Source: Candidatus Omnitrophota bacterium
GTDB lineage: Bacteria; Omnitrophota; Gorgyraeia; Gorgyraeales; Gorgyraeaceae
NCBI GenBank assembly: GCA_030691625.1
Contig: JAUYDX010000047.1
Location: 1 to 40,151 of the forward strand
DNA length: 40,151 nucleotides
Direction of reading: 5' to 3'
Shown: piece by piece, positions 24,912 to 40,151 of the stretch
How the letters are laid out: the number at the start of each line of letters is the position of its first letter
Numbering within the stretch: position 1 is the stretch's first letter
Position numbers and translations under genes: made by a program
Notes under the pieces: generated by a model
What the model was told of the DNA's origin: nothing
Database searches by the model: none
Seen by the model: the letters and a program-made list of their open reading frames with translations, nothing else

Positions 24912-26734
24912 AAAAAGAAAAAACCAAAAACAGCGTTATAGAAAAAAGAATCCCGCATTATATTATAATAATATTATTATTTCTAACAGGGCTCGTGGCC
25001 TATAAAGGGGCGTTTATCAAAGGCATATTCCTGTTTGATGATCAGGCCCTGATAGTAGACAATCCGTTCATAAAGGATTTTTCGCATATAAAAGACGTAT
25101 TTACCACGCACCTTTTTAAAGGAAGCGGGGTCTACAGCAATTTCTACAGGCCCATGCAGGCGTTTTCGGCAATGATAGAATATCATTTCTGGGGGCTAAA
25201 GCCGTTTGGATATCATCTTGTGAATGTTGTCATACATATGCTTACCTCAATAGCAGTATATTTCTTCGGGTATATTTTATCCAAAAGGCAGATTGTAGGC
25301 ATAACCGCGGGTTTATTATTCAGCGTCCACACGGTTTTATCAGGGCCTGTTCATTATATTTCAGCAAGGGCTGATTTGCTCATGGCCTTATTTTCTGTAA
25401 TAGCCATAAATTTTTATATGCTTTACAGGGAAACAAAAACGCGCGGGGTATTATTCTATGGTGTTTCTTTTTTAAGTTTTTTAGCCGCTATCTTAAGCAA
25501 GGAAACCGCGGTAATGGTACCATTTTTAGCCTTATTTTATTTGTACTGTTTTTCCGACAGAAGGGCTAATCTGGAAAACAGGAAGCCAAATTTATTGTGG
25601 CCTTTTTTTATTGTTATAGCCCTTTACGGATGGCTCAGATTTACCGCATTGGATTTCTCAGAAGGAAAACTCATAGAAACAACCACAGGCGTGCTCCCTA
25701 TGCACATCAGGCTTCTGACTACAAGTAAGGTCCTTATGCTATATTTACGATTACTGGTTTTGCCTGTGGGTTTGCATATGGAATGGGATATAGCGCCTGC
25801 GGTTTCGTTTTTTCAGGATGAGGTTTTTCTGTCCATAGTGGGATTATTGATAATAGCCGGGTTTATTTATTTTCTATTCAGGAATTCCAGGCTCAAATTT
25901 TTTGCCATAGGATGGTTTTTTATAACGTTAATACCATACCTCAATATATTTCCTATTAATTATTTCATGGGAGAAGGCTGGCTATACGTGCCTTGCATAG
26001 GGTTTTTCATATTAATAGGACTGTATCTTTCGGAATTAGGAAGCAGGTCTAAGTTCCTGTCCTGGGCAGTTATTTTTATATTGCTATCTTTTACGCTATT
26101 TTACGGCGCCCTTACTTGCAGGCGGGCATATGTCTGGGCAGATCCCGCGAGATTATACAAAGAGGTTTTGAAATATTCCCCTAATAATACGAAGGCCAGA
26201 ATTAACCTGGGCATGATCCTGGCGAAATCAGGGGACAGGGAAGAGGCGATTAAAAGGTACAATGAGGTGGCTAAGATTACACCGAACGATTCAGGGGCGC
26301 ATGCCAATCTCGGATCTTTATATGCCGAAAAGAAGATGAATGACAAGGCCATGGAGGAATTTAAAAAGGCTGTTGAGCTGAATCCAAAGGATTATGTGGC
26401 CCACAATAATATAGGTATTTTATACAAGATGAAAGGCGATATTAAAAAGGCAATGGAAGAATACACAAAGGCGCTGGAACTTAATCCGAGTTATCCTCTG
26501 ACATATAATAATATAGGCAATATATATCTGGACTCAAGACAATATGAAGCAGCCATAAGGTTTTATAACAAGGCTATAAGTATAGATCCGAATAAGGCGG
26601 CTTTTTACTCCAATTTAGGCAAGGCGTATAAAGCCAAAAGGATGCCTGAAAAGGCCAGAGAGGCGTTTGGAAAGGCGTTACAGCTGGAACCGGGACATAA
26701 GGAAGCTGTCAGCGAACTTAAAACTATCAGATGA
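24908..26734 (+). CDS. TMTC-like multi-TM (GT-C-like) protein with C-terminal TPR repeats
   Basis: Multi-TM N-terminus with LIVDNPFIKDF, YRPMQAFSAMIEYHFWG.KPFGYHLVNVVIH, HYISARADLLMALF; C-terminal TPRs (AHNNIGILYKMKGDIKKAMEEYTKALELNPSYPLTYNNIGNIY). Confidence 0.82.
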   Translation: MKKEKTKNSVIEKRIPHYIIIILLFLTGLVAYKGAFIKGIFLFDDQALIVDNPFIKDFSHIKDVFTTHLFKGSGVYSNFYRPMQAFSAMIEYHFWGLKPFGYHLVNVVIHMLTSIAVYFFGYILSKRQIVGITAGLLFSVHTVLSGPVHYISARADLLMALFSVIAINFYMLYRETKTRGVLFYGVSFLSFLAAILSKETAVMVPFLALFYLYCFSDRRANLENRKPNLLWPFFIVIALYGWLRFTALDFSEGKLIETTTGVLPMHIRLLTTSKVLMLYLRLLVLPVGLHMEWDIAPAVSFFQDEVFLSIVGLLIIAGFIYFLFRNSRLKFFAIGWFFITLIPYLNIFPINYFMGEGWLYVPCIGFFILIGLYLSELGSRSKFLSWAVIFILLSFTLFYGALTCRRAYVWADPARLYKEVLKYSPNNTKARINLGMILAKSGDREEAIKRYNEVAKITPNDSGAHANLGSLYAEKKMNDKAMEEFKKAVELNPKDYVAHNNIGILYKMKGDIKKAMEEYTKALELNPSYPLTYNNIGNIYLDSRQYEAAIRFYNKAISIDPNKAAFYSNLGKAYKAKRMPEKAREAFGKALQLEPGHKEAVSELKTIR

Positions 26735-27662
26735 TTTTTCTGCGTTCTTTTACGTAGTTACTGCCAGGAAGGCTTTTCGCGTACTCTTTTAATTCCGCTC
26801 CTATCTCTCCTACCTCTCCCACGTGGTTTATCTTTCTCTTTTCATTGGTGACCACGCCTATGGATATTGATAATAACGGAATTTTCCTGGTCTTTTTTTT
26901 CCTGTCCTGGCCTATGATGTATCCTTTTTCCAGGTCTTCCCTGTTGTACAGCCCCGGGACCATGGAGTTGAAGTCAGCTATGATTTTTTTGCACAGATCG
27001 TCCGTTTTATCAGGGATAGTCACTACCACGAAATCGTCCCCTCCTATATGCCCTATGAAATCCTGGGGCGTGCCTTTTTCCTGCACGGAGTTTATCAATA
27101 TCCTGGCGGTATTTTTTATTACCTCATCGCCTTTTTCAAAACCGTATTTATCATTGAAGGCCTTAAATTTATCAAGGTCGGCGTAGCACACGGCGAAAGG
27201 CGTGTTTTTATCTATGCGGTTCCGTATCTCGTTTATTATAGAGACGTTTCCAGGGAGCCTTGTCAATGGGTTCGCGTCCAGATCCCTGGCGGATCTTCTC
27301 AAAACCATTTTTACCCTTGCCACCAGTTCCTGCGGTTCAAAGGGTTTGACCACATAATCGTCAGCGCCAGCGTTTATACCGTGTATCTTGTCTGTGATTT
27401 CGCCTTTGCCGGTGAGCATTATAATAGGCATGTGTTGTATGAGTATATCCTGTTTTAATGTTTTGCACACCTCGTCCCCGCACATCCGGGGCATCTTAAA
27501 ATCCGTGATAAGGAGGTCCGGGGATGATTTTTTTACCATCTCCAGGGCTTCCTGGCCGTCGTGCGCCTCTATCACCTGGTAGCCTTCCGCCTCAAGCGTT
27601 ATCCTTAAGACGTCTAATATATCCAGGTCGTCGTCTACGATGAGTATCTTTTCTTTTAACAT
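26727..27662 (-). CDS. Response regulator with GGDEF-family domain (GGDDF motif)
   Basis: ILIVDDDLDILDVLRITL...DLLITDFKMPRMCGDEV...YVVKPFEPQELVARV; DLDKFKAFNDKYGFEKGDEVI...FIGHIGGDDFVVV. Confidence 0.88.
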   Translation of the reverse strand: MLKEKILIVDDDLDILDVLRITLEAEGYQVIEAHDGQEALEMVKKSSPDLLITDFKMPRMCGDEVCKTLKQDILIQHMPIIMLTGKGEITDKIHGINAGADDYVVKPFEPQELVARVKMVLRRSARDLDANPLTRLPGNVSIINEIRNRIDKNTPFAVCYADLDKFKAFNDKYGFEKGDEVIKNTARILINSVQEKGTPQDFIGHIGGDDFVVVTIPDKTDDLCKKIIADFNSMVPGLYNREDLEKGYIIGQDRKKKTRKIPLLSISIGVVTNEKRKINHVGEVGEIGAELKEYAKSLPGSNYVKERRKII

Positions 27663-27677
27663 TTGCGCTTACTCCTT

Positions 27678-27725
27678 GGTTCTCGACTGGGCTCACATGA
27701 ATAGCCACAATGTCCGCTCGAACGA
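27678..27725 (-). repeat. Hairpin repeat element, copy A
   Basis: Minus strand: TTCGAGCGGACATTGTGGCTATTCATGTGAGCCCAGTCGAGAACC; shares conserved arms with copy B at 30599-30645. Confidence 0.65.
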
Positions 27726-27727
27726 TA

Positions 27728-29197
27728 TTAATATTTTGGTATCGTGAATGTAAACCTGGTTCCTTTGCCCAGCCTGGTGTCGAACCAGATCTTGCCTTTA
27801 TGGGCCTCCACTATTTTTTTAACAAGCGACAGGCCCAGCCCCGAACCCTTTATATTCTGGTCCATCGCATTGTCTGCCCTGAAGAATTCCTGAAAGACTT
27901 TCGGGATGTCCTGGGAAGGTATGCCTATGCCCGTGTCCTCTACGCTGAACTGTACATATCCGTCCCCGTCTTCTATGCCAACGGTTACCTTTCCGTTATC
28001 CGGGGTAAATTTAACCGCATTGCTCAGCAAGTTCACTAACACCCTTTCCATCTGGCCCTGGTCAGCCCTTATCCTGTCCGATTTTATACCCGTGTTTATT
28101 TTTAAAGAGATATTTTTTTCTTTAACCTGAGGCGCTATTATATCCACAACCGAATCCAGTATTTCTTTTATAGAAATATCTTTCATATCCATCTGGACTT
28201 TTCCTGACTCTATCCTGGCTATATCAAGAAGGTTGTTTATCAGGTGCACCAGGCTGTTAGAGTGCTTATCTATTTTTTCAAGCCTCTCCTTTTGCGCCGG
28301 CTGTACTTCTCCCAGCTTGCCTGTCATGAGTATTGAGGCATAACCCTTTATGGATGTCAGAGGGGTCCTTAGCTCGTGAGATACGGCTGATATGAAATCG
28401 GATTTCATTTTATTCAATGTTTTAAGTTCCTGATTCAGTTTTTCAAGCTCTCTTGTTCTTTCCGAGACCCTCCTCTCGAGTTCCTTGTGGGAACCGAAGA
28501 GCTCTGTGTAGAGTTTCGCGTTTTCAATGGCTGTCCCTATCTCGCCGGTGAGTATGGATAAAAGTTCCGAATCTTTTTCGCTGATTTTTTCATACGCGGA
28601 ATCATTTCCCATGATTATAAATCCGACCGGCTCCTCTCTTACTATAACAGGGGCCGTTACAAAAGATTCCATTTTCAGCATATCCAGAAGATTCCATCTC
28701 CGGTCCACGCTTTCCGCGAACCTGTCAACCAGTACCGGTTTTTCCTTTTTAAACAGAAAACCCGCGAATTTAGTCTTGTTGAGTTCCGGTTCTATTAGTT
28801 TTATCTCAGCTTCAGAATAGCCTATAGAACTTTTTATAACCATGGTTTCCGATGACCCATCCTTTAGCATGAGCAGTAATTTAGAGTATCCTAATTTTGC
28901 TAAAAAAGGCTGGTTTATCATGCTGAAAAGGGCTTCTGTATTAAAGGTGGAACTTATCTTTTTATTGAGTTCATGAAGCGCGTATAAGCTTGTTATTTTC
29001 CTGCCCAGCTCTTCTTGTATCTTATTAAGGGCCAGATCGGTTTTTATGATAATTTTCGCCTGGCTGTCCAGCTGGTCAATTATTCCTCCCAGTTTTTTAT
29101 TTGATTTTTCGAGTTCTATGCGCCTCCTGGTTTCTATATGATACAGCATAAACAAAATGCAGCTTATTAAGACAGAAATTATCATGTATGTACCCAT
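27728..29197 (-). CDS. Sensor histidine kinase with GAF-like domain
   Basis: N-terminal TM; GAF-like region; H-box AVSHELRTPLTSIKGYAS; LVNLLSNAVKFTPDNG; GSGLGLSLVKKIVEAHKG. Confidence 0.9.
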   Translation of the reverse strand: MGTYMIISVLISCILFMLYHIETRRRIELEKSNKKLGGIIDQLDSQAKIIIKTDLALNKIQEELGRKITSLYALHELNKKISSTFNTEALFSMINQPFLAKLGYSKLLLMLKDGSSETMVIKSSIGYSEAEIKLIEPELNKTKFAGFLFKKEKPVLVDRFAESVDRRWNLLDMLKMESFVTAPVIVREEPVGFIIMGNDSAYEKISEKDSELLSILTGEIGTAIENAKLYTELFGSHKELERRVSERTRELEKLNQELKTLNKMKSDFISAVSHELRTPLTSIKGYASILMTGKLGEVQPAQKERLEKIDKHSNSLVHLINNLLDIARIESGKVQMDMKDISIKEILDSVVDIIAPQVKEKNISLKINTGIKSDRIRADQGQMERVLVNLLSNAVKFTPDNGKVTVGIEDGDGYVQFSVEDTGIGIPSQDIPKVFQEFFRADNAMDQNIKGSGLGLSLVKKIVEAHKGKIWFDTRLGKGTRFTFTIPKY

Positions 29198-29199
29198 AG

Positions 29200-30390
29200 C
29201 TACTCCGAAAACAGCGTTATGGAAATACTGTGGTTATTAAAATTACACTGGCCGTGCGATTCCTTTGCGTCAGATGGCGCGTATTCCCCGAAGGTATAAC
29301 ATCCCAGTATGGGTATATTTCTGCCCAGGACTTCTTTTACCGCGTCCATTTCCTTGTAAGCGTCATCTTTTAAGACTAAAAGCCTGGCCATGTCGCTGAA
29401 TATCGCAGCAAATTTTATTTTCGCATAACTGATATCTTTTACCGCTGATGTTGCCGCCTTTTTGGCGGATTCCAGTACAGCATCCTTGTCCCCTATCATC
29501 AGGCTTATATCATCCTCTTCTTTTATGTCCCCGTTTAACAGGAGCCCGCCGGCATCATCTATAGCGATAGGCACCCTGGTAATATAATCGTCAAAATTAG
29601 CTGATCTTGTCCCAATCGGATAGGTTATGCCCAGCGCGCAGATACCATAGTTTTTAAGCTCTTCAATGGATTTCTCAAAGTATTCTTCGTACAACCTGAC
29701 AGCTATTTTTTTATCTATTTCTTTTATGGTATTGGATCTGGCTTTTGTGATTTTATGGGTTTTTCCTAAAGGCTGCCAGCCATTGGATGTCCCAATGCCT
29801 AATCTGATATCGCCTGATATGAGCGCCCCGGACACAGAATCTGATAGCGCCTCGCTATCCATATACTGATATGTTTTCCGGTCGCATGTCTTATTGCACG
29901 CGCCGCCCCCTATTATGGGAAAACCTGTACCGAGTACTTCCTGGGAACCTCTTAAGATATTAGCGCTTTGTCCGGATGCGCCGTCAGAAAACATCATATA
30001 GGCTTGTTTGAGTTTGGATTTATTAGTTAAGCCAAGGGCCTTTATGACAGTCTTATTCCCGGCTAAACCAGGGCTTTTGGAAACCTTATCCCCTATCCCG
30101 CAGGAAAACAGCATAGAATCAGAGCTTATTATAAATACAGCCACGGAATCCTTATGGGAACCGTAGCTGGAAATAGCGCCTATGCTGGAGCATCCTATAA
30201 GCTGTGTATCTCTTGTTATCGATCTTATGCCCCTTATTGTTTCCTGTTGGTCAAATATAGGAGATATAAAAGTAATTACTATGCCGGGGTCATTTTTCCC
30301 GATCTGATAATAGGCATTCAAGGCAGCTTCTTTACCCGCTGTGAAAGAATCCAGTTTAGCGCTTATGCCTGTGCCTAATAATGTAGCCAT
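29200..30390 (-). CDS. FIST N/C domain sensory protein
   Basis: SFTAGKEAALNAY...DTQLIGCSSIGAISSYGSHKDSVAVFIISSD...GFPIIGGGACNKT...AAIFSDMARLLVL...IPILGCYTFGEYAPS. Confidence 0.82.
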   Translation of the reverse strand: MATLLGTGISAKLDSFTAGKEAALNAYYQIGKNDPGIVITFISPIFDQQETIRGIRSITRDTQLIGCSSIGAISSYGSHKDSVAVFIISSDSMLFSCGIGDKVSKSPGLAGNKTVIKALGLTNKSKLKQAYMMFSDGASGQSANILRGSQEVLGTGFPIIGGGACNKTCDRKTYQYMDSEALSDSVSGALISGDIRLGIGTSNGWQPLGKTHKITKARSNTIKEIDKKIAVRLYEEYFEKSIEELKNYGICALGITYPIGTRSANFDDYITRVPIAIDDAGGLLLNGDIKEEDDISLMIGDKDAVLESAKKAATSAVKDISYAKIKFAAIFSDMARLLVLKDDAYKEMDAVKEVLGRNIPILGCYTFGEYAPSDAKESHGQCNFNNHSISITLFSE

Positions 30391-30753: not shown

Positions 30754-30831
30754 GGCCCTATCGTCTAGCCTGGTCTAGGACATATGGTTCTCAGCCATAA
30801 GACAGGGGTTCAAATCCCCTTGGGGCTACCA
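30754..30831 (+). tRNA. tRNA-Glu (anticodon CTC)
   Basis: GGCCCTA...TGGGGCTACCA; anticodon stem TATGG/CCATA with loop TTCTCAG; GGTTCAAATCC T-arm. Confidence 0.92.
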
Positions 30832-31164: not shown

Positions 31165-31223
31165 TTTTTAGAAGTATTCCTCGCATATAATTTTACTTCT
31201 TTAACTTATTTAAGAAGTTACTC

Positions 31224-31252
31224 TTGACAAACACTATATTATAATATATACT
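31224..31252 (+). promoter_or_regulatory. Sigma70-like promoter for the riboswitch/giant-gene transcript
   Basis: TTGACA-17 bp-TATACT. Confidence 0.75.
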
Positions 31253-31332
31253 ATATGTGTAAGATAGAAGTATATATTTACTTTTTTTCCAGTTAAATTA
31301 ACGATATTTAAAAAGTATTTTAAATATATTAA

Positions 31333-31432
31333 ATCCTCTCCGATAATAGCAAACCATGAGTAATCATGGGGCGCAAAACCAAGGGTCCGCCACCACTTAA
31401 AGTGGTGGCGAGATAGCCGAGTTGCCAAAGAG
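31333..31432 (+). ncRNA. Cyclic di-GMP-I (GEMM-I) riboswitch aptamer
   Basis: AGCAAACCATGAGTAATCATGGGGCGCAAAACCAAGGGTCCGCCACCACTTAAAGTGGTGGCGAGATAGCCGAGTTGCC matches the GEMM-I layout: GCAAACC, P2 hairpin, GG.CGCAAA.CC, P3 hairpin, AGC.G.GTTGCC. Confidence 0.87.
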
Positions 31433-31461
31433 AGATAAAAACAAGGCAATTCGGCTTTTTT
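31415..31461 (+). terminator. Intrinsic terminator overlapping the riboswitch 3' strand
   Basis: AGCCGAGTTGCC ... GGCAATTCGGCT followed by TTTTT; the 5' arm is the aptamer 3' strand. Confidence 0.85.
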
Positions 31462-31493
31462 ATTAAATCAATTAAATCGCGGGGGCGAGGCCG

Positions 31494-34400
31494 ATGTTAG
31501 ACTGGCAGAATAAAAAATGGATTAAAGTAATAGCCTGTGTATTGGTTATTACTTTTCTTGCTTACGACATAGCCTGGGCCACAGACTTCTCCCCTATTGC
31601 TCTGCATTCAGCTATTCCCGGTACCCCCGGTATTTTCCCCAAGATAACAAGCTTTATATCCGAGAAGATCTTTAAGAAAACAGACAAGACAAAAAAACCC
31701 GAAGAAACAGAGATTTCTTTCAGAAGCCAGCTCGTCCCTTCGAAAAAATACGAAGAGAGGTCTGGCTTTTTGCGTTTAGAGGCTGTCAGGGATATGATAA
31801 AGCGCCAGATGGATGAGATGCAGCGCCGTCAGCAGATAGAGCAGGAACGCGTTAATAGATATATCATAGATTCTGATATCAATAAAGGCCTATATATAGA
31901 TGCTGTGGAAAAGGCGCAAGAGGCCCAGTCTATCAATCAGCAGATAATGAAGGCAAGGGGCGAAACCATGGGTGCTGCAGCAGCAACCAGCGAGTTTAAC
32001 TACGTGATGAATAAAGACGGCTCAAAGGTGAACTACATAGACGGCCTTCCATCCTCAATAGAAAACGAACAGATGGCGGATTCCTATGGCTACGTGAGCA
32101 TAAAGAACACAAAGAACATGAAATACAATAGCTCTCGCCTTTTAACCTCCTATGATGCCGAGGTAATAGACCCCAAAGGCAATATCACTAAGATCAACTG
32201 GTATGACGCGGTCTATAGCCCTGATTCAGTCTGGTGGGCTGACAGCACTACAAAGGCCGGTAAATACATGCTCAGTTACAAAGAGATCATCACTGATCCG
32301 CAAGGCACAGTTATCCAGCGGGAATGGTCAACCGCAAAAGAGAATTATGATTCGCTGAAAAGGCCCATGACCTACAGGGAGACGATAAAAGACGCCATAG
32401 GGAATACCATTTCTACCTCAGACTGGTCAAATGGCATATATGACGGAGACAAACTCAAAAGCTATCACCAGGTTACTAAAGACGCTTACGGAAACGTGAG
32501 TACCCTTGACTGGGAGGCTGAATATAATAATTTTGGCTATATCAAGAAGTCATCTTCAAAAGAAAAACTTGAAAAAAGAGACCATTCCACTTCTTTTACC
32601 GAAAGCGCCACCACGTATGATTATGACTCTAACGGGACATTAAATACAGCATCCGGGACCAGCGCGATTACCGGAGAGGATGAGTACGGCAATAGAAATA
32701 CAGGCACTACCACGCAGCACTATGAAACAATAAACGGACAGGTAAAACTTACCAAGAATTTGTCCATAGTGGATTACGAAAATATAGACGGTTCCACCGC
32801 TCACAGCGAAAGCGTTGTGGAATACACATATGATTCCAGAAATCTTCTGATAGGGGCAGAGGGCATTACAGGGACAACCGGCAAAAATATATTTGGGAAT
32901 GGGTATAAGACAATCACGACAGATACTTATGAGATAATCGCAAGCCAGGCGAGGCGGGTCCATTCAGTGTCTATAAGCGATGAAGAAGACCTGTTTGGTT
33001 CAAATACACATTCAGAAACAATCAATGATTACAAATATGACGCTAAAACAGGGGATCTCATATCAGCTACAGGTTACACAGATACCCTGTCTGAAGACCT
33101 GTTTGGCAACCAGTCGGTTACGCGCACAGACCACATCTATCAGATTATTAATGGCGAAGCAAGGATGATCGGGTCTGAGACAAGAGGCGACCTGGTAAAT
33201 CCAGGAAGCGAAATGGGCCAGATTATATCAGGCATACAGGATTTTTTAGAATCTTACGCCGCACTCGCCACCCCAGAGGCAAAACAGGCAAAATTACAAG
33301 AGGCTGGATTAGCAGGCCTTGGATTAAAATTAGCTGACCTTACAACAGCAGGTGCCCTTAAAATCGCAGTGTGGCTGTTCAGGGCATCTACAAACCTCAT
33401 AAACTGCGCAATAAACGCAGTCTATAATATACTTTCAAAATTAGGCATTACAGTTACAAAGAAGGAACTGATCCAGAAGGCTGTGCTGATAGATGTGCTC
33501 AGCGGCGTAATAACACCTGAAAACGCCAGCGGCGACCTGATGCTTTCCATGTATTCTATGGTCAAGGCAGCCCAGGCAAAAGGTATTACACTTTACGGCG
33601 CGAATGTGACAATAGAGCAATTGAAATCCATAGGCAAGCCTGTAATAGCGCATGTAGGCGGCGATCACTATATTGTGATAAAGTCCGTAGGCGATTCCCA
33701 GATCACTTATATCCAGGATAATGAGGAAAAGATCATGGGCCTGGCAGAATTCTTGAGCGTATGGGAAGGCAATATCGCAACCCAGGATGTGCCAAGCGGT
33801 GTCACAGCCATGAATGAAGAGGCGCTTAAAGCAATAACAGGCGCGGAGGCGCAATATCGTTTGCCAAGGCCAAAGAAACCTACAGATCCTGCAACAGGCG
33901 TTAATCCTCCTCAATGGAGCGCGCCTGAGGATTCTGTAAAGCCAAAAGACGCGAAGTCTTCCCAGTGGGAAGATGTGTCTGGATGGGAATGGCAGTGTGA
34001 ATGGAATGATTCTGAAGATCAATGGGAATGGAAATCTGTCTATGTAGAAAAGGCAAAGATCTCCTGGCAAAAAGACGGCAAAAATTATTACCAGATATTC
34101 GGCAAGAATCGCGAAAATAAATGGGAGGCCATAACTAATACTGAAGGGAAACCAACAGGGCCAGCGTATAATTCTGATTATAATAACAGCAGGCCGCCTG
34201 ATGGCAGGGCGTTTCGGCCTCCGCCTCTTGATGAAAAACGCGAAATGAAGGTGAAAATAAAAGATGGCATTTATGTGACATTCAGGTACAGCAAGTCTGT
34301 GCCTGTAATTGATATAGAAGGCAAAGTAGCCTATTTTACTTATTACCTTGTGTTTACAGACCCTGTTACGAACAATGACCAGGAGGTAGAATGGGTTGAT

Positions 34401-37400
34401 TCATCAAGCTGGGAATGGGAAAAGATTGATGGAGAATGGATGTCTGTGTGGAAAGAAAGGGCAATGATTTCATGGGCACAGAGCAACGGACCTGATAAGG
34501 AAGAAAACAGGTATTCCAAGACGTTTGAAGAGAACTCAGACGCCAGCGGCTGGGTTATATCAGAAGGCACCAATGGTTTTGGCGGATTTTTAAAAGAGAT
34601 TATTGAGGTAAAAGGCGATCCTAACGGCAGGCATGTGGCGCAGTGGAGCGATGATGGCCAGAGCGGGTTTGAGCTGTTCAGAAAGGGCGAGCCAAATACA
34701 GGGTCTTATTACTTATATTACCTGACTTGGAATTATAAAGACGGAAAACGCGAAGAGAGCCTGACTATAATAGAAGGTTTTAATATTTATATGAAGTCCC
34801 AGAATGACAAGGGCACGACTGTTACCGAGGCTGAGCGCAATCAGAATGCCAGCGGGGTTAACTGGGCGAATATTTGGAATAATAATACAGAGACAAAGTC
34901 TGTGATGCTGGCAAAAATAAAGCGGGAAGGGAATTATTATCATATTGACGGAGAGTCTGTTATGTACGAAGGCCTCTTAACAGTGATTGTCTCTTTGAAG
35001 CGCGAAATAGGCAAGGATGAAGCAGGGGTCCTTGACAGAAAGGCGTATTTTATAAGGAACGACTCTTTTGTTGACTGGCCTGAACTTGTAAAGCAGTTAA
35101 AAGACAATATCTCCGCTAAATTTGTTTATGATGAATTAGGCATGGGCCTGTTCGCAAAGGTGGTTTTATCAAGGAAAACCGGGGGCGATGGGGATTTTAA
35201 ATTCACTATAGATCTTGATGAACTGTGGGAATACCCTGAAAAAGAAGGGGATGAATTCATCTTTAAATTTATCCAGAACGGGACGTCAAAGACATATACA
35301 GCCGGATCAATGACCCTGGACTATACTACAGGATATATTGTAAGGGATGAAGACGGCAATATTGTAGAAGATCATACAAGCATAGATCGCGAAATCGCGG
35401 ATATCAAAGCAGTAGTTACAATAACGTGGGTGGATGAAGAAGGAAAACCTGTAAAAGCCGGGGAATCGCCCAGAGGTTACAAGATAAGAGTGACAATACA
35501 AAGCCCTTCAATAGAGCAAGGCTTTGATCCTTCTGAACCTGATGAGAATGGAAATGTGACAGAGACTATAAACCACAAGATAGTTTATAACGAGACCTCG
35601 TTTGAATTCACCATTGATATAGATGTTGAAAATATGTCCAGCGGAACTGACCTATCCATGGATGCCGGGAAACTTTATCAGGAATTCCTAAAGGATAAAA
35701 CAGATGAGTATAACAAGCAGAATAACGAGTCCCTCACAGTGGAACAGTGGCTGGATAAGAATCCATTGTATAAAAATCCAGCGCTCAGGGCGGTATTCGA
35801 CCAAAAGATAAAATTAATCAAAGGCAAAAATGCAGGGGAATGGATACCTGAAATTACCAGGACTTACAAAGACGGAGCAACAACGATAGGCACAATGAAG
35901 CTAACTACTATGAAGCTTCACACATTATCAAAGGAATTGAACGATTTAAAATCAACAGCTACTTACAAGGAAAACCTGGCATTTATGCCGGAATCGCTTT
36001 TAATAAAGGATATGAAGATTGCTACAAATGGAGTGCTTGATTATACGTATGAAATCAGCAGTGACGGCGTTATCAGCGGGGCTGAACTTCTCCCGAATAA
36101 TACCACACCCGCCATTGATACTAATCCTCCGGAGCCGTTAGTAAGAACTACTGAACCCAGCGCAGCGGGCGCCCTGGGCGTTTTCAGCCCTCTAGGCCTG
36201 TCATCTTTATTGAGGGGCCAGACTGTTATAAGCTTTGACTCTGGCAATAACGTGGAAAGCATTGTGATGCCTGACAGATCAGGGAACATAGTAAAATATA
36301 CGCTCAAATCTGTTGTGTCAGAAAATAAATTCAGGATGAAATCAGGGAGTTTAAATATCCCTGACATTATCTTAACGCTTGATAAGGAAGGTAATATAGC
36401 TATTGAGGCTGTGGATTCAGGAAATCCTCCGATACTTATACAGCTTGCAGACGGCAAGGCAATAGGCCAGGCAAGAGGCGCTGAAACAGAGGGGGTCTAT
36501 GAAATTTCCCAGGATATATCCGGCAATAAGATAATGCTGATAGATTTTCAGGCTAAGGAACTAAAGGAAGAAAAAAGCATAAAGACAGCCACGAGCATAA
36601 TCGAGGCCATTAAAAAATTCCTGGAAGAAAAGATGCAGGCAATAGGCGCTGTCCCTGATAAGATAAGAAATGCCATAAATACTCTGGGAGGCGTAACTAA
36701 ATTTTTAAAATGGCTTACACAGATGGGCACGTATCTTATAAACTGCGCTGTCATTGCGGCAAAGGCCGTGCTTGCAAAGGCAGGGGTGAATCTGGGAGTC
36801 CAGGAGATAGCGGTTGATATGATCTTACTGGACCTGATGGCAGGGAACATTAACCCCAGGACCACAGCCATACTTTACAGCACATTTTCCGCGATAGAAA
36901 AGATAATAAAGAATAACGGCGTTAACATGAAGACCATGTATTTTACAAGGAGCCAGCTTGAGAATATCACCACGCCTGTTATCGCGCATGTAGGCGGAGA
37001 TCACGCAGTGGTGGTCACAGGGGTCTACAATGGAGAGGTCTATATCATAGAGTCAGACGGGAAATTATACAACGTGCCTATCAATAAATTCCTGGAGGAA
37101 TGGAGCGGTTTTATGATCGCGGAAAGGGCTCCGCCTATGACAGGGGCACCGGATACCGCGATCAGTATCCCCGAGCAGATTCCTTCCCAGGGTTTTATTG
37201 CCACGCCGCAGGAAAAACTCATACCGCAGGCAATAGAAGACAGATTAAAAAAAGCTTCTGAAATACCTTCATCAGATCAAAAAATAATCCTTGTAACCAA
37301 GTTAAAAGAACCTGAAGCAGACTTATTTGACCACAGCCGCGTACATGAATCCAGCCCTGATGTCATAACCACTATAGGGATTGACGGCTCTATAACCTAT

Positions 37401-40151
37401 ACAAAGAGCTGGGTAAAATATGAATATGACGCAGACGGCAGGCTTATCAGCGCCAGCGGAGAAGACTATGTATGGGGAGAGGATATATTCGGGAATTCTT
37501 ACAGGACCACCTCTACCTCCACGTATCTGATAATAGGAGGCCAGGCAAAGAAGGTAAGATCCGAATCTATTACCGAGTCAGAGACCCTGGATGGGTCAAA
37601 CAGCGCTACCACAGGGACTGTTAATTACGAATACACAGACGGCACTGAAGACCCGTCTACATTACCTTCGGCATACACAGATGAAGATGGGAATGTGCTC
37701 AAGGGGCTTTTAAAACACGCAGACGGGAGCAGCGTTACTACAGGTTCGGATGTATTTGGGAATGGCTATACCACAAGAAGTACTGATACTTATGCGATTA
37801 TAAATGGAGAAGCAAGGGTTCAAAAAAGCGTATCTAATACAGAAAGCCAGACCATATCAGGCGCGTTGAATAAGACCACGTCCACTATTGAATATCTCTA
37901 CGCGGATGGCACAGAAGACCCTGATTCTCTTCCCGCGGAATGCATTAATGAGGACGGCAAAATAATTGTCGGCTCATTAAAAGGCGCCAATGGCCTTGTG
38001 CAGTCTTCCTCAGAAGATGTATTTGGCAATGCCTACACCACCACCACAATAGATACCTACGGGATACTGGCAGGCAGGGCAAAGGTCCTGCAGTCTAATT
38101 CAATAACAAAATCCGTGTCCCTTGATGGCCTTATAAATACCAATACAGGCCGCATTGAGTATGAATACAGCGTAACTGAAGATCCTTATGTGAACCCTGA
38201 GACAGGGAGATCCGGCATAGGGGTTTTGGTTGGCGCAAAGGGCGGAAATATTGTAGAAGGCGAAGACGTATTTGGAAACAAATATTTCACCACCACCACA
38301 AATACCTATACCATGAGCATGAGCGGCCAGGCAAAGGTACTGGAAGCTGTTTCCCTGACCGAATCAGTTAATATAGACGGCTCTATAAGAAGGGATGAGA
38401 ATTTTATAACCTATCACTATACAGACGGCACAGAAGACCCGGCAACGCTTGGACCTGAATATTTTGACAAAGACGGCAATATAATAATAGGCATTTTAAA
38501 ATCAGCTGAAGGCCATGGCCAGACAACAGGCGAGGACGCATTTGGCAATAGATACACTACAGTAAGCGCCAATAGATATATCTACAGGAAAGGCGAGGTG
38601 TTTGTTGAGGGGGTGGACAGCGTTACAACCGGCAGAGACCTTTTTGGCAATTCTTATACAACCACAACCTGGATGGATTATTCTTTCGGCAGTCTTAAGA
38701 AGGGTGAAAAAGGCGCTCTCAGAGACGCTGATTTTGTGATATCCGGGATTGGCGCAAAAGGAGGCGGATCTGTAACTGTAGGCAGGGATCTGTTCGGAGC
38801 AGAATACAATACCGCAGTTACCAACACATATATATTTAATAAGGGACAGTTGTATGTTAACAAAGTGGACAGTCTGACAAAAGGGTCTGACGCATTTGGT
38901 TCCAGCTACACATCAATAGGTTTTGTTGAATATCTATACAGCAGCCTTAAAAAAGGAGAAAAAGGCGCGCTAAGGGATGCTGATTTTATATTGATAGACG
39001 CCAGAGGCGGAAATGAAAATACATCCATAGATGTATTTGGGTCGAATTCCATTACCACTACCACAAATACCTATATCTATAATAAAGGCCAGGTTTATGT
39101 GCTTGTCTCAGACAGCGTGACTACTGGTTCAGATTTGTTTGGGTATAGCTATGCTACCACAGGGTCTATTAATTACAGCTATGGCCAGTTATTAAAAGGC
39201 GAAAACGGCGCTCTCAGGAACGCGGAGTTTGCGATAAAAGAAGCCGCAGGCGGGTCTAGTAACGTAACCCATAATGTATTCGGCGAATTAACCACCAGCG
39301 TAACGACAAATATATACAAAATAGTAAAGGGCCAGTCATTAATAGATACCTCAGTGGTTGTTACAAGCGGCACAAATCTATTTGGAGAGTCATATGTTAC
39401 CACAACCATCACGAAATATACGTATCATGAAACCCCTGAAGGGCCTAACAAGGCGTATGGGGAGCTAAAAGACGCGATAACAGAGTCTAATACCGAAGGC
39501 AGTGATGTATGGGGCTCAAGTTATGCCACTATATCCACATCCTATTATACGAATATAAACAACAGGGCGCTTGTATCAAAGGTTATGGCTCAGACCACAG
39601 GCGAGAATCTGTTTGGAGAAAGCTACACAACAGAATCTATTACTGAATATTTCTATTATGATGGAAAAACAGGGCCTGATAAGGTATATGGCGAGATCAG
39701 GGATGCTAGAAGCGTCAACATAACAACAGGCCTTGATGTTTGGGGTTCAAGTTACCAGACCACATCCACAACCAAATTTATAATAATAAAGAATAAACCC
39801 CTGCAACAGGAAGTTACAGCTGTGACAGCAGGCTCTAACCTGTTTGGAGAAAGCTACACTACATATTCCACTACCACCTACACCTATAAAGATACTGAAG
39901 GCGGAGACGCCAAGGAAACTAGCCTTGGCCAATTGGCCAGTACCGCGAGTAATAGCGTTACTAACGGCACCGACGTCTGGGGCGCCACATACACGACTAC
40001 ATCCGAGACCAAGTTCACCCAGATAAATAACAGGCCTTTTGCTGAAAAAGTCACAGCCGTTACAACCGGCACAAACCTCTTCGGCGAAAGCTACACCACA
40101 TACTCAACCACCACCTACGCCTATAATGACAAAGGAGAGATACTCTCTACC
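31494..40151 (+). CDS. Giant secreted repeat protein with two C39-like domains, 3' truncated by window edge (at least 2,886 aa)
   Basis: ATG 31494 (MLDWQNKKWIKVIACVLVITFLAYDIAWATDFSP..., signal peptide). I translated this frame by eye to 40151 and found no stop. Not in the supplied ORF track. Confidence 0.93.
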   Translation, partial: MLDWQNKKWIKVIACVLVITFLAYDIAWATDFSPIALHSAIPGTPGIFPKITSFISEKIFKKTDKTKKPEETEISFRSQLVPSKKYEERSGFLRLEAVRDMIKRQMDEMQRRQQIEQERVNRYIIDSDINKGLYIDAVEKAQEAQSINQQIMKARGETMGAAAATSEFNYVMNKDGSKVNYIDGLPSSIENEQMADSYGYVSIKNTKNMKYNSSRLLTSYDAEVIDPKGNITKINWYDAVYSPDSVWWADSTTKAGKYMLSYKEIITDPQGTVIQREWSTAKENYDSLKRPMTYRETIKDAIGNTISTSDWSNGIYDGDKLKSYHQVTKDAYGNVSTLDWEAEYNNFGYIKKSSSKEKLEKRDHSTSFTESATTYDYDSNGTLNTASGTSAITGEDEYGNRNTGTTTQHYETINGQVKLTKNLSIVDYENIDGSTAHSESVVEYTYDSRNLLIGAEGITGTTGKNIFGNGYKTITTDTYEIIASQARRVHSVSISDEEDLFGSNTHSETINDYKYDAKTGDLISATGYTDTLSEDLFGNQSVTRTDHIYQIINGEARMIGSETRGDLVNPGSEMGQIISGIQDFLESYAALATPEAKQAKLQEAGLAGLGLKLADLTTAGALKIAVWLFRASTNLINCAINAVYNILSKLGITVTKKELIQKAVLIDVLSGVITPENASGDLMLSMYSMVKAAQAKGITLYGANVTIEQLKSIGKPVIAHVGGDHYIVIKSVGDSQITYIQDNEEKIMGLAEFLSVWEGNIATQDVPSGVTAMNEEALKAITGAEAQYRLPRPKKPTDPATGVNPPQWSAPEDSVKPKDAKSSQWEDVSGWEWQCEWNDSEDQWEWKSVYVEKAKISWQKDGKNYYQIFGKNRENKWEAITNTEGKPTGPAYNSDYNNSRPPDGRAFRPPPLDEKREMKVKIKDGIYVTFRYSKSVPVIDIEGKVAYFTYYLVFTDPVTNNDQEVEWVDSSSWEWEKIDGEWMSVWKERAMISWAQSNGPDKEENRYSKTFEENSDASGWVISEGTNGFGGFLKEIIEVKGDPNGRHVAQWSDDGQSGFELFRKGEPNTGSYYLYYLTWNYKDGKREESLTIIEGFNIYMKSQNDKGTTVTEAERNQNASGVNWANIWNNNTETKSVMLAKIKREGNYYHIDGESVMYEGLLTVIVSLKREIGKDEAGVLDRKAYFIRNDSFVDWPELVKQLKDNISAKFVYDELGMGLFAKVVLSRKTGGDGDFKFTIDLDELWEYPEKEGDEFIFKFIQNGTSKTYTAGSMTLDYTTGYIVRDEDGNIVEDHTSIDREIADIKAVVTITWVDEEGKPVKAGESPRGYKIRVTIQSPSIEQGFDPSEPDENGNVTETINHKIVYNETSFEFTIDIDVENMSSGTDLSMDAGKLYQEFLKDKTDEYNKQNNESLTVEQWLDKNPLYKNPALRAVFDQKIKLIKGKNAGEWIPEITRTYKDGATTIGTMKLTTMKLHTLSKELNDLKSTATYKENLAFMPESLLIKDMKIATNGVLDYTYEISSDGVISGAELLPNNTTPAIDTNPPEPLVRTTEPSAAGALGVFSPLGLSSLLRGQTVISFDSGNNVESIVMPDRSGNIVKYTLKSVVSENKFRMKSGSLNIPDIILTLDKEGNIAIEAVDSGNPPILIQLADGKAIGQARGAETEGVYEISQDISGNKIMLIDFQAKELKEEKSIKTATSIIEAIKKFLEEKMQAIGAVPDKIRNAINTLGGVTKFLKWLTQMGTYLINCAVIAAKAVLAKAGVNLGVQEIAVDMILLDLMAGNINPRTTAILYSTFSAIEKIIKNNGVNMKTMYFTRSQLENITTPVIAHVGGDHAVVVTGVYNGEVYIIESDGKLYNVPINKFLEEWSGFMIAERAPPMTGAPDTAISIPEQIPSQGFIATPQEKLIPQAIEDRLKKASEIPSSDQKIILVTKLKEPEADLFDHSRVHESSPDVITTIGIDGSITYTKSWVKYEYDADGRLISASGEDYVWGEDIFGNSYRTTSTSTYLIIGGQAKKVRSESITESETLDGSNSATTGTVNYEYTDGTEDPSTLPSAYTDEDGNVLKGLLKHADGSSVTTGSDVFGNGYTTRSTDTYAIINGEARVQKSVSNTESQTISGALNKTTSTIEYLYADGTEDPDSLPAECINEDGKIIVGSLKGANGLVQSSSEDVFGNAYTTTTIDTYGILAGRAKVLQSNSITKSVSLDGLINTNTGRIEYEYSVTEDPYVNPETGRSGIGVLVGAKGGNIVEGEDVFGNKYFTTTTNTYTMSMSGQAKVLEAVSLTESVNIDGSIRRDENFITYHYTDGTEDPATLGPEYFDKDGNIIIGILKSAEGHGQTTGEDAFGNRYTTVSANRYIYRKGEVFVEGVDSVTTGRDLFGNSYTTTTWMDYSFGSLKKGEKGALRDADFVISGIGAKGGGSVTVGRDLFGAEYNTAVTNTYIFNKGQLYVNKVDSLTKGSDAFGSSYTSIGFVEYLYSSLKKGEKGALRDADFILIDARGGNENTSIDVFGSNSITTTTNTYIYNKGQVYVLVSDSVTTGSDLFGYSYATTGSINYSYGQLLKGENGALRNAEFAIKEAAGGSSNVTHNVFGELTTSVTTNIYKIVKGQSLIDTSVVVTSGTNLFGESYVTTTITKYTYHETPEGPNKAYGELKDAITESNTEGSDVWGSSYATISTSYYTNINNRALVSKVMAQTTGENLFGESYTTESITEYFYYDGKTGPDKVYGEIRDARSVNITTGLDVWGSSYQTTSTTKFIIIKNKPLQQEVTAVTAGSNLFGESYTTYSTTTYTYKDTEGGDAKETSLGQLASTASNSVTNGTDVWGATYTTTSETKFTQINNRPFAEKVTAVTTGTNLFGESYTTYSTTTYAYNDKGEILST
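33390..33800 (+). other. C39-like peptidase domain 1 within the giant ORF
   Basis: TNLINCAINAVYNILSKLGI (Cys codon 33405-33407) ... KPVIAHVGGDHYIVI (His codon 33666-33668) ... ITYIQDNEEKIMGLAEFLSVWEG. Confidence 0.7.
36723..37125 (+). other. C39-like peptidase domain 2 within the giant ORF
   Basis: TQMGTYLINCAVIAAKAVLAKAGV (Cys codon 36744-36746) ... TPVIAHVGGDHAVVV (His codon 37002-37004) ... YIIESDGKLYNVPINKFLEEWSG. Confidence 0.7.
37470..40151 (+). repeat. Degenerate protein-level tandem repeats in the giant ORF (FG/WG-signature units)
   Basis: About 18 copies of [GS]xD[VL][FW]Gx.Y.TT signatures, e.g. GEDIFGNSYRTTS, GSDVFGNGYTTRS, GRDLFGNSYTTTT, GTNLFGESYVTTT, GSDVWGSSYATIS, GTNLFGESYTTYS. 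Confidence 0.88.

Follow-up and report, generated by a model that had tools for sequence, protein, structure and literature searches.

Among described systems, the closest to the locus reported here are the Geobacter cGAMP riboswitches (GEMM-Ib; pilM/Gm0970 and GSU1761). In pilM of G. metallireducens, which has been characterized by NMR, the terminator sequesters the ligand-pairing C75 (equivalent to C92), and ligand binding blocks termination (PMC9262584). The contact nucleotides of the Geobacter cGAMP riboswitch are G8, A11, A12, U13, A14, C15, A41, A42, G74, C75, and C76 (PMC7288161). One Geobacter aptamer with A20 and U19 prefers cGAMP about 1,600-fold (PMC8835794), and position 20 has been described as a factor in selectivity, not a strict filter (PMC9262584). 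In Bacillus thuringiensis, the Bc2 RNA that precedes the surface protein gene cap is a c-di-GMP-I ON switch acting by antitermination (PMC4933901).

Giant open reading frames (ORFs) are already known from Omnitrophota, where they reach 39,678 amino acids in V. archaeovorus LiM (PMC10066038), and the main text of that paper contains neither "riboswitch" nor "c-di-GMP." A literature search that excluded preprints and most subscription journals returned no description of GEMM control in Omnitrophota, and nothing was found in the literature search on when their giant ORFs are expressed. The combination of a GEMM switch with a giant Omnitrophota ORF, and the conservation of this combination, appear to be new. 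The novelty is nevertheless smaller than the original prediction claimed, because both c-di-GMP-I ON switches before surface adhesins (PMC4933901) and the giant ORFs themselves (PMC10066038) were known. Giant ORFs are a prominent and unexplained feature of the phylum, and a conserved cyclic-dinucleotide ON switch would, for one family of them, supply a signal amenable to testing in vitro with no need for a culture.

Organization of the locus

The window, i.e., the whole stretch of 40,151 nucleotides analyzed, is one entire contig of a genome of 1.44 Mb in 101 contigs, with an estimated completeness of 91%. Judged by the N-terminal 330 residues of the giant protein, its closest relatives are all "Candidatus Omnitrophota/Omnitrophica" genomes. 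The following features are referred to below.

26727 to 27662, minus strand: REC-GGDDF response regulator gene
27728 to 29197, minus strand: GAF-HisKA kinase gene, in the same row
29200 to 30390, minus strand: FIST sensor gene, adjoining the switch (whole row, 26727 to 30390)
31195 to 31218, no strand: imperfect inverted repeat ACTTCTTTAA-N4-TTTAAGAAGT, read directly, immediately 5' of the -35 element
31224 to 31252, plus strand: sigma-70-type promoter TTGACA-17-TATACT, read in the sequence
31307 to 31320, plus strand: leader box TTTAAAAAGTATTT, kept in orthologues
31336 to 31340, plus strand: 5' strand of aptamer helix P1 (CUCUC), pairing with GAGAG at 31430 to 31434
31338 to 31429, plus strand: GEMM-I (RF01051) aptamer, Rfam covariance model (58.2 bits, E = 5.3e-9)
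31348, plus strand: Vc2 position 20 (which we take to be Rfam position 11), with A where Vc2 has G and with U31347 before it, from the RF01051 alignment
31415 to 31456, plus strand: intrinsic terminator hairpin, from fold energy, alignment, and transcript folding; its 5' arm (31415 to 31426) is the aptamer 3' strand
31456 to 31461, plus strand: terminator T tract, read in the sequence
31481 to 31490, plus strand: purine-rich GGGGGCGAGG, read directly, with GGAGG at the same place in three orthologues
31494 to 40151, plus strand: giant ORF, 2,886 codons or more, with no stop codon before the contig end
33366 to 33788, plus strand: first C39-like cysteine-peptidase domain (Pfam PF03412, orthologue alignment, AlphaFold, Foldseek)
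36699 to 37133, plus strand: second C39-like domain (Pfam Peptidase_C39, orthologue alignment)

The promoter named in the original prediction is present and is kept in orthologues. Sequences resembling the inverted repeat upstream of it also occur before several orthologues, and the repeat is a possible operator. The TTTAAAAAGTATTT box matches once within the window, and its extended form occurs once in the genome when up to two mismatches are allowed. The GGGGGCGAGG stretch is a likely ribosome-binding site. A tRNA gene (30754 to 30828, plus strand) directly precedes the giant-gene leader, as is also the case at many orthologous loci.

The predicted GEMM-I aptamer scored above the RF01051 gathering threshold of 35 bits. 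Like class I c-di-GMP riboswitches of the Vc2 type, it matches the model, folds into P1, P2, and P3 around a three-helix junction, closes P2 with a GNRA-type loop (GUAA), and carries the ligand-pairing C92 (Vc2 numbering) at C31425; it differs from that type in having A20 rather than G20. The Rfam structure pairs GC at 31349 to 31350 with GC at 31373 to 31374 at the base of P2, and the UU of UUGCC with the AA of CAAAACC in P3. The GCAA/TTGC pairing originally proposed for the aptamer was therefore wrong, as P2 and P3 have other partners.

Promoter, aptamer, and overlapping terminator precede an orthologous gene (MLDWQxKKWxKVIA...) at 13 loci, comprising the window and 12 others from the same GTDB family (one contig, G017:C93, begins inside the promoter region). 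Across these loci, P1 always retains a duplex of 4 bp or more (13 of 13), and P2/P3 cells are paired in 97% of cases, versus 23 to 40% when the alignment is slid. Homologous giant genes from further GTDB families within the class (G027, G047, G151, G163, G227, and G032) likewise have GEMM-I directly upstream, and by eye the terminator again reuses the aptamer 3' strand in G027, G032, G047, and G227. On the other hand, no GEMM was found in 39 of 40 regions upstream of additional giant ORFs; most of these ORFs have only the N-terminal segment in common. This rules out the idea that giant genes in general are under GEMM control and indicates that the switch tracks this gene family.

A separate box, AAAAAGGTAG, was present in 5 of the 40 giant-ORF upstream regions (L239 to L278), whereas Markov shuffles predict 0.04. 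In several of these regions it sits about 20 nt 5' of TTGACA; it is possibly the mark of a regulator common to giant genes.

Terminator and proposed mechanism

The terminator arms, AGCCGAGUUGCC (31415 to 31426) and GGCAAUUCGGCU (31445 to 31456), pair at 12 of 12 positions with one G-U pair around an 18-nt loop. The hairpin has a fold energy of -19.2 kcal/mol, versus -5.2 ± 2.2 kcal/mol in shuffled sequences (z = -6.5), with none of 200 shuffles as good. A simple terminator scan did not return it because that scan allows loops of 8 nt at most. As originally proposed, the terminator is built from the aptamer 3' strand: its 5' arm is contained entirely within the aptamer, and C92 falls in the terminator stem. 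Aptamer and terminator are thus mutually exclusive, as predicted, through the common 3' strand including C92 and not through GCAA/TTGC. The terminator cells are paired in 94% of cases in the 13 aligned loci, versus 18 to 39% when slid. Covariation is weak (both partners changed in 1 of 12 pairs) because the aligned sequences are close relatives, so that the case for conservation is based instead on the persistence of pairing and position. In folding of the growing transcript, the aptamer was favored up to about 31450 and the terminator from 31452 to 31454 onward, by about 9 kcal/mol at completion.

We propose that the element is a GEMM-I transcription-termination ON switch. Transcripts from the promoter at 31224 to 31252 would fold the aptamer; without ligand, the terminator 3' arm would take over the aptamer P3 strand and C92, and polymerase would stop at about 31461. 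A ligand-bound aptamer would keep its 3' strand, and the giant gene would be transcribed. ON logic is expected because the arrangement matches that of Geobacter pilM, where a terminator formed from the aptamer 3' strand likewise sequesters C92. The aptamer, the terminator, their exclusivity, their conservation, and A20 are established computationally; the ON direction, well supported by the likeness to pilM, is inferred, as are the ligand, the link to the neighboring genes, and export of the protein. We consider the ON-termination architecture, taken by itself, very probable. Assuming this mode of action, the window switch would also resemble Bc2/cap in combining a GEMM-I switch with an antitermination layout, while differing from it in phylum, target protein, and position-20 subtype.

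Position 20 and the ligand

The pilM paper refers to "G11, equivalent to G20" (PMC9262584), in agreement with the correspondence between Vc2 and Rfam positions used above. The assignment to the GEMM-I class in the original prediction stands; c-di-GMP as its ligand is not secured, since the specificity base is A, a point absent from the prediction, which named cGAMP only as a ligand for probing. The G20 of c-di-GMP-selective (Vc2-like) aptamers is replaced by A31348, and the sequence traits of cGAMP-selective (GEMM-Ib) aptamers, A20 plus the contact bases, are found. Ten of the 11 contact bases listed in PMC7288161 are identical in the window aptamer (C15 is G within a kept pair), and J1/2 reads G-A-U-A-A-U-A, compared with G8-A9-N-A11-A12-U13-A14 in the Geobacter cGAMP riboswitch. 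The window switch shares with the Geobacter cGAMP riboswitches the aptamer fold, A20 after U, and C92; it differs from them in phylum (Omnitrophota), in the pairs at the foot of P2, and in the giant-protein gene downstream, and no Hypr GGDEF was found in its genome.

These observations are the basis for the strongest alternative, namely, that the element is a true cGAMP (GEMM-Ib type) ON switch with the same mechanics, responding to 3',3'-cGAMP from an enzyme that is unrecognized or missing from the assembly. In addition to the A at position 20, the U at 19, and the contact bases, this alternative is favored by the distribution of A20. All aligned orthologues of the window switch have A20, while the other aptamers in the orthologue-bearing genomes almost all have G20, as do the other three RF01051 aptamers of this genome. 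Among deduplicated aptamer cores, T19 is followed by A20 in 13 and by G20 in 3, counts that do not represent a probability because the sequences are related. The association spans several separate gene contexts: A20 is found in other contexts in G014, G020, G033, and G050, and it also precedes the homologous giant gene of G047. A20 plus U19 being a cGAMP signature, such a pocket would be a poor c-di-GMP sensor.

The enzymes encoded argue the other way. The Hypr signature is Ser replacing Asp344 of GGDEF (PMC6456294), and this serine was found in none of 84 GGDEF read-outs, some of them duplicates, from this genome, the other A20 genomes, and some further relatives. This genome has 4 GGDEF, 4 HD-GYP, and 11 PilZ matches and no EAL domains, and its four GGDEF proteins have D, D, D, and F at the Hypr position. 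A Hypr GGDEF was accordingly rejected as the cGAMP source, as was a SMODS CD-NTase, for which this genome has no match; among 11 genomes tested, SMODS nucleotidyltransferases were confined to G014 and G018. With the genome 91% complete, a Hypr enzyme or CD-NTase was possibly missed. Position 20 also varies between families at homologous switches, and in other families a G20 GEMM-I aptamer mostly occupies this place before the homologous giant gene, which argues for the same messenger. Taking both sides together, we rate a true cGAMP switch as a serious contender that is somewhat improbable.

We favor c-di-GMP as the most likely physiological inducer, with about an even chance of being right, because no known cGAMP synthase was found. 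It would be read by a relaxed A20 pocket; with UA at Vc2 positions 19 and 20, the window pocket belongs to a type whose ligand in Geobacter is cGAMP and which is able to tolerate c-di-GMP. Even with c-di-GMP as the inducer, the aptamer could prefer cGAMP in vitro. The complete explanation, an ON-termination switch with c-di-GMP as its ligand, is the best available, and we give it as much credence as doubt. Overall, the original prediction is partly supported: the observation is confirmed and the mechanism was read correctly, with c-di-GMP as one of two candidate ligands. A bolder proposal, which we regard as unlikely, is an Omnitrophota cGAMP branch in which A20 GEMM-I switches turn on a giant exported protein and the synthase is neither a Hypr GGDEF nor a SMODS-type CD-NTase. 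The presence of A20 in genomes without a known cGAMP synthase raises the question of whether the base at this position is a guide to the ligand beyond Geobacter or whether an undiscovered source of cGAMP exists.

Several minor observations were also made. Pattern-search matches in which position 20 is C or T look like false positives. Other A20 aptamers in the class (L019, L008, and L027) precede smaller genes and have separate, nonoverlapping terminators; the proteins encoded are probably exported, and one is RlpA-like with an ASWYS motif. At L149 (G050:C68), a GGEEF domain has Asn at the Hypr position (GHESGN).

Direction of switching and variant loci

Some loci depart from the common arrangement and bear on a second alternative: an OFF switch, or an attenuator independent of ligand, with the terminator as its main element and an aptamer that has degenerated or acts in the opposite direction. 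One P3 pair (column 46-86) is a C-A mismatch in the window and in some orthologues. The G016 orthologue (L224, 3500 to 4010) keeps the gene and shows a repeated ATGTATACTATATATAGAG promoter-like unit but has lost the aptamer, and a fourteenth locus, in G009 (L199/L227), has two extra hairpins between ACG and CAAA of J2/3, such that this copy may be broken or a natural variant. All of this would fit an attenuator. The aptamer core, P1, and the overlapping terminator are nevertheless kept in 13 loci, and the terminator is incompatible with the aptamer's P3 and C92, so that ligand binding, if it occurs, must act in the ON direction. We therefore consider this alternative very unlikely. Chance resemblance to a riboswitch can practically be dismissed given the RF01051 E value of 5e-9, the retention of the element in 13 loci, and the occurrence of the family in 56 of 59 relatives searched, with no evidence found in its favor.

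The giant gene and its product

The product of the giant ORF has an N-terminal hydrophobic signal, repeats, and two C39-like domains. The original prediction of a giant secreted protein agrees with this: the N-terminal segment resembles a membrane-export signal, and the protein is probably exported. This segment is common to giant ORFs across the class, including a G071 frame whose 39,687 codons nearly equal the 39,678 amino acids published for V. archaeovorus LiM. The window ORF resembles other Omnitrophota giant ORFs in its great length and N-terminal segment and differs from them in its two C39-like domains and GEMM control. An in-frame stop at codon 2029 in G007 was rejected as the protein end, since reading resumes in another frame after a likely frameshift.

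The first C39-like domain was modeled by AlphaFold with a mean pLDDT of 91 and matched the C39 peptidase domains of PCAT1, ComA, and HlyB-type transporters in Foldseek (best E = 1e-4; TM by target, about 0.65 to 0.79). In an alignment with 14 relatives and paralogous copies, the Cys and His are invariant; peptidase activity is uncertain because the C39 oxyanion Gln is not evident in the first copy.

Neighboring signaling genes

The row of FIST, kinase, and REC-GGDDF genes next to the switch may supply the ligand (c-di-GMP) and is perhaps a candidate source. By its motif, the REC-GGDDF product is a putative cyclase of a variant GGDEF form, and one GGDDF domain of Geobacter is active (PMC8835794). 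All A20 contigs of sufficient length (the window, G007, G008, G012, G014, and G018) have the GGDDF gene on the opposite strand, about 3.9 to 4.3 kb upstream, and it is still in place in G016 despite the loss of the aptamer there.

A different arrangement was observed at L039 (G000:C47:44000-56445), where a G20 GEMM-I aptamer (contig positions 54945 to 54810, minus strand) with its own promoter-like sequence and terminator is oriented so as to read into a convergent REC-GGDDF gene (53313 to 54764, plus strand) from its 3' end. The C-terminal part of the encoded protein presumably resembles MshEN. This arrangement is kept in the genus, and the aptamer is a candidate antisense-acting riboswitch.
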